Below are positions 10,553 through 13,060 of a stretch of 44,610 nucleotides of DNA, piece after piece (position 1 is the stretch's first letter; every line of letters starts with the position of its first letter). The stretch covers positions 1 through 44,610 of the forward strand of contig QKAL01000024.1 in the NCBI GenBank assembly GCA_003246475.1, in the 5' to 3' direction. Below the pieces are notes generated by a model. That model saw nothing but the letters and a program-made list of their open reading frames with translations. It was not told where the DNA came from and searched no databases. The translations under genes and the position numbers were made by a program. This stretch comes from Lentisphaerota bacterium. GTDB taxonomy: Bacteria > Verrucomicrobiota > Lentisphaeria > Victivallales > SZUA-371.

Positions 10553-10798
10553 TCAATAATTAAACAGGTCGCCGCGTTTGTATTCCTGCCCCGTGGCCTT
10601 GTTGACGGCATTCATAATTTTAATCTGGACATTAACGCTCAGGCGACGACCGCTGCAGGCCTTCTTGACCATCTTGTGTGTGACCTGATCGGTGGAAGCT
10701 GCAACCACATCGTGAGTTTTCAGACTGTACTGCTCCATAACCGCGGCAACGGGTTGAGGACCCATCTCCAATTCACTCTTAGAAATTTCGTCGTTCAT
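10553..10798 (-). CDS. small protein of unknown function, possible HTH fold
   Basis: 81-aa ORF in the same direction as its neighbours; compact basic helical sequence VTHKMVKKACSGRRLSVNVQIKIMNAVNKATG. Confidence 0.6.
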   Translation of the reverse strand: MNDEISKSELEMGPQPVAAVMEQYSLKTHDVVAASTDQVTHKMVKKACSGRRLSVNVQIKIMNAVNKATGQEYKRGDLFNY

Positions 10799-10859: not shown

Positions 10860-12200
10860 TCAAAGAGTAAATTTCTCGTAATGGATCGATTTATTGCCAA
10901 CACCGAGTCCGGCGAGTATCTTCCGCAGTCCCTTCATCATCTGCGGTGGACCGCAGAGGAATATTTCCCGTTCCGGCAGATCAGGAACAAGGCGACTGAT
11001 CTTTTCCGCATCGATACGCCCATTTTCTCCACTCCAGTCCGGATCATCGCTCAAAACATGGAAAACCTTGAAACGCCCGTTGGAAGACTGTTCCAACCGG
11101 GCAAGTTCACCTTCAAAAACAATCCCGCTGCGCTTGCGGCTGGAGTAGAGAAGAATCACCTCTCGTCCTTGCCGCATAAGATCTTCCGCCAGCGACCGCA
11201 ATGGCGTAATCCCTATCCCGCCACCGATCAGCAACACTTTCGCTGCATGACAATGCGCTGCCGTAAAAACCCCGTGCGGACCATCGATAATCACCGGAGT
11301 ATTCGCCCTGATTCCGCCGACACGCCGGGTATAATCGCCTAATGCCTTGATGGACAAACGAATCCGCCCGCAATCGAGCAAGCTGGACAAGGAAAACGGA
11401 TGCGCCTCCCAGCGAAATCCCTTATCCCAGAAACGGACAATGACGAATTGTCCTGCAGCCATCCGAAAACGTTCCATATCCCTGCCACTGATATAAACGG
11501 AATTGACATCATCGGTTTCCGCCACCACCTCTGCCACCGCAAAACGGTGTCGCCGGTATGAGGCCAGAGGACGGATAAAACGGTAGTACAGCAAATTGAG
11601 AAAGACAAAGCCATAAAGAAAATACCAGAAGGCGGCAAAATAACGATTTGAGGTAAAATCACTGCCGACTTCCAACTGGTGTCCAAATGCCAGCGCTATC
11701 GCAATATAGATGGACAAATGCGAATAATACCACAATTCATAACGTAACCATTTCCGCATCACCAGAATCGACATGATTATCGCAATTACAAAAATGGTCT
11801 GTCCCACTACTGCCGCCATTACATCTTCCCAGTTGCGGCAGAAGTCCACAAACTGCTCCCACATGCTGACATCAGCCTGCATCGAGTGCCCCATATTCAC
11901 GAGCAACGGGTGTGAGACAAGGAACACAATGAGGAATAGCCCCAGAAAACGATGCAGATGTACCAGGCGGTCATGACCGAAAACTGTTTCTATCCATTTT
12001 ACCCGCCCGATAAGCATGATCTGGAAAAGCACCGCCAACACCGCCAACAGCCCGGCAAGGCGTCCATAGGCCAGCAACTGCTCGACCGCTCCACCGGCAA
12101 GTTGATTGCCCATGGGGTCTTTTACGTGATTCCAGAACCAGAAGCCGACTGTCGGAACGACAGGAAGCAATATTGCCAGAAACAGGCCGATCCTTTTCAT
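10860..12200 (-). CDS. NOX/ferric reductase-like transmembrane flavocytochrome
   Basis: TM His pairs H-X13-H (HRFLGLFLIVFLVSH) and H-X12-H (HLSIYIAIALAFGH), FAD motif HPFSLSS, NAD(P) motif GGGIGITPL, terminal FLCGPPQM. Confidence 0.88.
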   Translation of the reverse strand: MKRIGLFLAILLPVVPTVGFWFWNHVKDPMGNQLAGGAVEQLLAYGRLAGLLAVLAVLFQIMLIGRVKWIETVFGHDRLVHLHRFLGLFLIVFLVSHPLLVNMGHSMQADVSMWEQFVDFCRNWEDVMAAVVGQTIFVIAIIMSILVMRKWLRYELWYYSHLSIYIAIALAFGHQLEVGSDFTSNRYFAAFWYFLYGFVFLNLLYYRFIRPLASYRRHRFAVAEVVAETDDVNSVYISGRDMERFRMAAGQFVIVRFWDKGFRWEAHPFSLSSLLDCGRIRLSIKALGDYTRRVGGIRANTPVIIDGPHGVFTAAHCHAAKVLLIGGGIGITPLRSLAEDLMRQGREVILLYSSRKRSGIVFEGELARLEQSSNGRFKVFHVLSDDPDWSGENGRIDAEKISRLVPDLPEREIFLCGPPQMMKGLRKILAGLGVGNKSIHYEKFTL

Positions 12201-12230
12201 ATTTTCCGTTGTCCCACGCGCATCAGTATA

Positions 12231-12854
12231 TTACTCAATCTCTTCAAACTTAGAACGTGGCGCAGCACAGACCGGACATTTTTTAAGTCCCATGTCCATG
12301 CTCGTATAGCCACATACCTCACAGACCAGGAACACTTTTCCCGGCGCTCTCCAGGCATCAAGTTCCTTTAAAGCCAAAGCATAAAATCTCGCGTGTTCCT
12401 TCTCCGCCATCATCGCTCCGCGAAAAGTCCTGACCGCCATGGCGTTCTTCTCTTTTTCCGCCTGTTTGAGAAACTCCGGATACATCGTCTCCATCTCATA
12501 GGACTCGCCTTTGAGCGCAGCTTCCAGATTTTCACGCGTTGATTTAACCTCGATGTCATTAAGCACCGCGTTCGGTTTTGCGCCCTCTTTCTCAATCACG
12601 GCCCCATGTTTGCGGGCATGAACGGATTCAGACAGAGCCGCCGCGCGGAAAAGTGCCGCCACTGATTTGTATCCCTCTTCGTTCGCCTTGGCGGCATATG
12701 CTTCATATTTCGCCTTAGCATTGGTTTCGCCGTTAAATGCTGCTTGAAGGTTTTCCAGGGGGGTTTTGCCTTTTGCCGTTTCGGCATTGACAGATGTTAC
12801 GATACCAAGTCCCAGAAATAAGCTTGCGACAAAACAATTCAGAAATTTGTTCAT
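12231..12854 (-). CDS. rubrerythrin with predicted Sec signal peptide
   Basis: MNKFLNCFVASLFLGLGIVTSVNA|ETAKG signal; diiron motifs (GETNAKAKYEAYA, SESVHARKH, GESYEMETMYPEF, EKEHARFY) and C-terminal rubredoxin-like CEVCGY...CPVC. Confidence 0.9.
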   Translation of the reverse strand: MNKFLNCFVASLFLGLGIVTSVNAETAKGKTPLENLQAAFNGETNAKAKYEAYAAKANEEGYKSVAALFRAAALSESVHARKHGAVIEKEGAKPNAVLNDIEVKSTRENLEAALKGESYEMETMYPEFLKQAEKEKNAMAVRTFRGAMMAEKEHARFYALALKELDAWRAPGKVFLVCEVCGYTSMDMGLKKCPVCAAPRSKFEEIE

Positions 12855-13060
12855 AATTCCCCCCATTATTTTCACTCTGACTGCATCATATTACCCCAAT
12901 TATAATATTTATATACCCAAACACCTGCAAAAGCAACATTAAACCCCGTAGTAAACAAGTATTTATCATCATTTATGATTAAATACCGTCAGGCAAAAAT
13001 TTTTCCGTTTATGGCTTGCTTTACCGTCTCGGTTTAACTCAAAGGTGGGCGCGAATTGCA

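Follow-up and report, generated by a model that had tools for sequence, protein, structure and literature searches.

A rubrerythrin predicted to be exported, encoded beside a NOX-like transmembrane flavocytochrome in a Lentisphaerota bacterium: a candidate trans-membrane system for peroxide or oxygen reduction

The window analysed here is a stretch of 44,610 nucleotides from a Lentisphaerota bacterium (contig QKAL01000024.1), in which the gene for a rubrerythrin with a predicted signal peptide is followed by the gene for a transmembrane flavocytochrome of the bacterial FRE/NOX group. The same pair was identified in distant bacteria, and a functional coupling of the two proteins is well supported. 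With a probability of roughly 0.6, the pair is considered to be a trans-membrane NAD(P)H:peroxide (and/or O2) oxidoreductase. Only a shade less probable is the narrower form of this reading, a dedicated trans-membrane peroxidase, in which a bacterial NOX-family enzyme would have the exported rubrerythrin, and not O2, as its natural acceptor. The recurrence in distant bacteria suggests that the pair represents a previously undescribed trans-membrane defence against peroxide or oxygen in this Lentisphaerae bacterium.

The gene pair and its products

The rubrerythrin gene lies upstream and the flavocytochrome gene downstream on the common minus strand (Table 1). An earlier note on this DNA had described an operon-like layout, and this was borne out by a gap of 30 bp and by the absence of a terminator-like site between the genes. 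The coordinates, diiron motifs and rubredoxin-like C-terminus that the note had given for the rubrerythrin were verified, with 7 of 7 diiron ligand positions and the C-terminal CxxC...CxxC motif (Cys4) present. The protein was matched by the Pfam families Rubrerythrin (E=3e-23) and RUBY_RBDX (E=4e-8), over cut-off. Nigerythrin (1YUZ) is the closest solved structure by sequence, and an AlphaFold2 model, built like that of the flavocytochrome from alignments made in this analysis, matches nigerythrin by fold with a template-modelling (TM) score of about 0.8 and a mean predicted local distance difference test (pLDDT) value of 90.4. The protein scored below the NCBIfam equivalog cut-offs both for nigerythrin (NF045783, 131.8 bits against 340) and for rubrerythrin (NF045767, 104.5 against 200).

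Characterised rubrerythrins are cytosolic and are served by soluble reductases. The delta-proteobacterial rubrerythrin system works in the cytoplasm (PMC545781). For the rubrerythrin of the window export is predicted, and this assignment is well supported by hydropathy, by the contrast to paralogues and by lipoboxes in homologues. Residues 1-24 read MNKFLNCFVASLFLGLGIVTSVNA, followed by ETAKG, and consist of a short K-containing n-region, a hydrophobic core with a mean Kyte-Doolittle value of 2.48 over 11 residues, and an A-x-A-like end (V-N-A). The segment thus has the n/h/c form of the Sec signal peptide proposed earlier, and the paralogues and homologues agree with it. In the structural model, the pLDDT falls below 50 solely at residues 6-27. 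All partnered rubrerythrins carry an N-terminal hydrophobic segment (mean hydropathy 2.3-3.1), whereas in the order's unpartnered rubrerythrins the start lies a short way ahead of the domain or a strongly hydrophobic segment is missing (23 of 23 scorable; 24 were retrieved from relatives, and L021, with no ATG near the domain, was left unscored). Three partnered homologues contain a lipobox (IVGGC in L098, LFAGC in L131 and GIGC in L145), which argues for export, since a lipobox is sensible only on an exported protein. A mis-called start as the origin of the signal peptide was ruled out, because the same extension occurs with A-x-A or lipobox ends in relatives.

For the flavocytochrome, the Pfam families Ferric_reduct (E=1.6e-13), FAD_binding_8 and NAD_binding_1 were identified. 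The bis-His spacings H83-X13-H97 and H161-X12-H174 and the dehydrogenase motifs HPFSLS (267-272), GGGIGITP (326-333) and CGPP (416-419) were all found where the earlier note had placed them, and the heme histidines, four in number, are conserved without exception in the 37 aligned homologues. The loop charges obey the positive-inside rule with the dehydrogenase domain in the cytosol, and in this orientation H97 and H174 would, by analogy with the assignment in NOX2 (PMC3591440), be the ligands of the outer heme. The closest solved structure by sequence is the NOX of Streptococcus pneumoniae (SpNOX), which the AlphaFold2 model (mean pLDDT 89.6, six helices) matches by fold with a TM score of 0.84.

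The term NOX-type used in the earlier note stands insofar as the motifs are those of the bacterial FRE/NOX group. The features used in published filters for bacterial NOX (PMC5676040), comprising HPFSL, GIGITP, two bis-His pairs on helices 3 and 5 and six helices, are all present. However, the equivalent of NOX2 His-119, the extra histidine in transmembrane helix 3 of eukaryotic NOX enzymes producing reactive oxygen species (PMC3591440), is absent, the position being V101 in the window and V, I or L in all partnered homologues. Superoxide production is therefore not to be assumed for the flavocytochrome. These findings bear on an alternative in which the flavocytochrome makes superoxide or H2O2 at the outer face and the peroxide is then cleared by the exported rubrerythrin with the help of another reductant. 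While the conformity with the filters and the in vitro oxidase activity known for SpNOX speak for such a role, it is considered unlikely, given the residue at the His-119 position, the two pairs described below that keep heme domain and rubrerythrin without an NAD(P)H domain, and the little sense that a dedicated source of reactive oxygen species makes for a likely anaerobe. Moreover, the exported rubrerythrin would still require an electron donor, and no other one is encoded alongside.

Table 1. Features of the rubrerythrin-flavocytochrome pair, in positions of the window
Feature	Position	Strand	Basis
Rubrerythrin, predicted to be exported (nigerythrin-like), 207 aa	12231..12854	-	Pfam, structure and fold comparison
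Predicted Sec signal peptide, residues 1-24, cleavage after SVNA	12783..12854	-	hydropathy; contrast with 23 signal-less paralogues
Diiron four-helix-bundle domain, residues 32-168; ligand positions E43 E76 H79 E117 E120 E151 H154	12351..12761	-	Pfam, ligand table, model
Rubredoxin-like domain, residues 172-207; C178 C181 C193 C196	12234..12341	-	Pfam RUBY_RBDX, ligand table
Spacer of 30 bp between rubrerythrin stop and flavocytochrome start	12201..12230	-	sequence scan
Transmembrane flavocytochrome, bacterial FRE/NOX (SpNOX-like) group, 446 aa	10860..12200	-	Pfam, structure comparison
Six-helix heme (ferric-reductase) domain, residues 1-218	11547..12200	-	Pfam Ferric_reduct, invariant His, model helices
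Heme ligands H83, H97, H161, H174	11952-11954, 11910-11912, 11718-11720, 11679-11681	-	alignment
FAD/NAD(P)H dehydrogenase domain, residues 219-446	10863..11546	-	Pfam FAD_binding_8, NAD_binding_1; motifs

Recurrence and inheritance of the pair

By a scan of one genome per species and by searches of 61, 138 and 291 relatives, 18 distinct complete pairs were identified, 17 of them besides the window. In each, the rubrerythrin gene precedes the flavocytochrome gene on one strand, with gaps of -4 to 175 bp. The hosts belong to the Lentisphaerae/Verrucomicrobiota, the Hydrogenedentes, the Auribacterota and, with one metagenome-assembled genome (MAG), the Planctomycetota. The gene neighbourhoods outside the pair vary between genomes, and no third gene common to the pair loci was found among those compared. 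The conserved adjacency of a signal-peptide rubrerythrin with an FRE/NOX homologue, named earlier as a check, was thus found in unrelated neighbourhoods, and this recurrence, together with the missing N-terminal extension in the 23 unpartnered rubrerythrins, rules out a chance arrangement. A nineteenth pair (L077) was left out of the count, because its contig ends inside the rubrerythrin. At L075, the flavocytochrome begins at a contig end, and the corresponding genome (G231) has the rubrerythrin near another contig end.

Within the order, 10 of 138 genomes carry the exported rubrerythrin clade, and each copy precedes a gene for a ferric-reductase-domain protein. This protein is a full flavocytochrome in eight genomes and a heme domain alone, with all four histidines kept, in two (G162 and G624). 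The partnered rubrerythrins group together in a single clade (bootstrap 87), in which the short-form pairs are nested; the short forms have thus probably lost the NAD(P)H domain and retained the partnership. The distances of rubrerythrins and flavocytochromes are correlated (Mantel r 0.68, reached by 1 of 5000 permutations), and three well-supported splits are common to both trees.

The pair is absent from the congener and from most of the order, and the exported rubrerythrin clade was found in 0 of 296 other Planctomycetota genomes. This patchy distribution suggests horizontal transfer of the pair. It would also be expected for a mobile two-gene unit whose products have no biochemical link, but this explanation is very improbable, since the partnership spans several phyla, export signal and partnership coincide, the trees are broadly congruent, and a domain was lost with the partnership kept.

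On the predicted outer face of the partnered flavocytochromes, H25, H105 and W124 are conserved, with variation in the deepest members (L079, L086 and L087); W124 is also present in the unpartnered L081. A docking site at these residues is suggestive, but descent within the clade explains the conservation equally well.

Flavocytochrome homologues from Patescibacteria, Nanoarchaeota and Chloroflexi (36-45% identity) have no rubrerythrin alongside, which confines the link to one clade and not to the whole flavocytochrome family. Those of the Patescibacteria and of a Nanoarchaeota MAG (L080, L081, L082, L084, L085, L092, L093 and L094) show 42-45% identity, and in L094 a cupredoxin-like protein adjoins. 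Among the Chloroflexi homologues (L088-L091), an FMN_bind protein (by Pfam) and an ApbE-like gene (by eye) adjoin in L090 (4872-7669). Judging from this more distant homologue, the family may already have supplied electrons to exported partners at an earlier stage.

In the window itself, the pair is flanked by a pseudopilin-like gene upstream and by an 81-aa open reading frame and an ilvN-like gene downstream. As further partners these genes were rejected, since neither flank was observed again next to the pair in relatives. The 81-aa frame (10553-10798, minus strand) is without a Pfam or NCBIfam match.

Proposed electron path and its alternatives

We infer an electron transfer between the flavocytochrome and the rubrerythrin, together with its substrate and physiological role, as follows. 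Hydride from cytosolic NAD(P)H would be passed to the FAD of the flavocytochrome, from which single electrons would move via the inner heme (H83/H161) to the outer heme (H97/H174). At the outer face of the membrane, the rubredoxin-like domain of the rubrerythrin would accept electrons from the outer heme, and the diiron site of this exported protein would then use them in the periplasm to convert H2O2, and possibly also O2, to water. Assembly of the diiron and FeS4 sites in the periplasm is assumed. In this way, oxidants could be cleared before they enter the cell, which would be one without a detected terminal oxidase: neither cytochrome bd nor a heme-copper oxidase was found in the genome of the window, which is 78% complete.

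Rubrerythrins depend on a separate source of reducing equivalents; their substrates are H2O2 and, in the case of reverse rubrerythrins, O2 (PMC7482061). An exported rubrerythrin is out of reach of cytosolic reductases, which supports a donor in the membrane. In two partnered rubrerythrins, L072 (4178-4777) and L076 (4259-4927), the diiron ligands are lost while Cys4 is kept and the flavocytochrome still adjoins, which fits the FeS4 site as the electron entry point. The earlier note had offered power supply and release of reactive oxygen species as two options; since the rubredoxin domain outlasts the diiron site and the heme domain outlasts the NAD(P)H part, direct electron supply is favoured, and the two are not equally likely.

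Several points weigh against the trans-membrane oxidoreductase. Adjacency demonstrates coupling and not electron flow. The degenerate diiron sites of 2 of the 18 pairs imply that reduction there is not the role of the pair in every host; L072 and L076 lie on long branches, their genomes encode other rubrerythrins, and in these hosts the partnered protein may be an electron relay only. A possible exception to the pairing is L099, a clade member whose available upstream sequence of 338 bp contains no rubrerythrin and whose genome has none of the clade at E<=1e-32. A shared PerR or Fur box was rejected: the PerR-like palindrome ATATAAATATTATAA (window about 12900-12914, at -60 of the rubrerythrin start) has 2 mismatches, and this weak box is unconserved in relatives.

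In a further alternative, for which L072 and L076 speak, the exported rubrerythrin would serve mainly as a rubredoxin-like periplasmic carrier from the flavocytochrome to another acceptor, with a dispensable diiron site. Such a relay is quite doubtful as a general role, since 16 of the 18 pairs retain the complete set of seven ligand positions, no common third gene was found, and the L065 rubrerythrin has lost one cysteine (C196S) and yet keeps its diiron ligands.

A role in iron metabolism, with a surface ferric reductase and an exported ferritin-like protein handling periplasmic Fe(II) as ferroxidase or iron buffer, is likewise unlikely, marginally more so than the production of reactive oxygen species. 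The ferric-reductase/NOX superfamily includes metal reductases (PMC3591440), and SpNOX also reduces iron under anoxia (PMC11564096), both consistent with this role. A ferroxidase, however, has no need of the retained rubredoxin domain, and neither an iron transporter nor a TonB receptor nor a Fur box was observed as a recurrent neighbour of the pair.

In other Verrucomicrobiota, a second set of exported rubrerythrins, with 43-47% identity to that of the window, was observed without a flavocytochrome (L132:5527-8500 and L133:2929-6231; related L112, L113, L114, L120 and L127). In the larger regions of L132 and L133, a DUF2231 membrane protein was identified near the rubrerythrin by Pfam, and two-component regulator genes nearby by eye. 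For this second set, the DUF2231 protein might act as the electron donor in the membrane instead.

Comparison with known systems

In the MsrPQ system, the ferric-reductase-domain protein MsrQ feeds the periplasmic MsrP. The pair described here resembles it in that a ferric-reductase-domain heme protein lies beside the exported reductase that it would power, an adjacency found in the 18 pairs and in two pairs with the heme domain alone. Closer still in layout are the short forms L131 (4444-5736) and L145 (1435-2744), in which a lipoprotein rubrerythrin precedes a heme-only ferric reductase domain that has all four histidines and lacks the NAD(P)H part. In contrast to MsrPQ, the exported enzyme is a rubrerythrin and not a molybdoenzyme, and most copies of the membrane protein carry their own NAD(P)H domain.

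In MsrQ-like systems, ferric-reductase-domain proteins with NAD-binding domains adjoin exported FMN-binding proteins and ApbE (PMC8238504). Here, too, a Ferric_reduct and NAD-binding protein lies beside an extracytosolic electron acceptor; however, the genes around the window pair showed neither an exported FMN-binding protein nor ApbE. The word rubrerythrin is absent from the paper on these systems (PMC8238504). In the literature searched, which consisted mostly of abstracts with few subscription journals, the phrase 'periplasmic rubrerythrin' did not turn up in any paper, and nothing pointed to a pairing of a rubrerythrin with a ferric reductase or an NADPH oxidase. As far as found within this literature, a rubrerythrin as the exported partner of a ferric-reductase-domain protein is undescribed, while the feeding principle itself is known from MsrPQ and the MsrQ-like systems.

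With nigerythrin and rubrerythrin (PDB 1YUZ and 1B71), the protein of the window shares the fold, the diiron ligand positions and the C-terminal rubredoxin-like Cys4. It differs from them by its predicted N-terminal export signal, in some homologues a lipobox, and by its tie to a membrane electron carrier. If the proposed path is true, this would be the first electron-fed extracytosolic rubrerythrin system, and the chemistry of rubrerythrins, which is known from cytosolic enzymes of anaerobes, would take place outside the membrane and draw on an NAD(P)H supply of its own, so that oxidants could be reduced before entry. It would also give a concrete physiological role to one branch of the bacterial NOX/FRE proteins.

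SpNOX (PDB 8QT6/8QTA; PMC11564096, PMC11031084, PMC5676040) has the same six helices, bis-heme histidine pairs and FAD and NAD(P)H domain, at about 21% identity in structural alignment. The purified enzyme directly reduces protein acceptors, cytochrome c and superoxide dismutase, in the absence of O2; the physiological role of bacterial NOX-like enzymes was described as unresolved, and a protein acceptor was suggested by the authors (PMC11564096). Whereas SpNOX is without a known physiological partner, the flavocytochrome of the window has a conserved extracytosolic partner gene, and this conserved operon offers a specific candidate protein acceptor for bacterial NOX-like enzymes.
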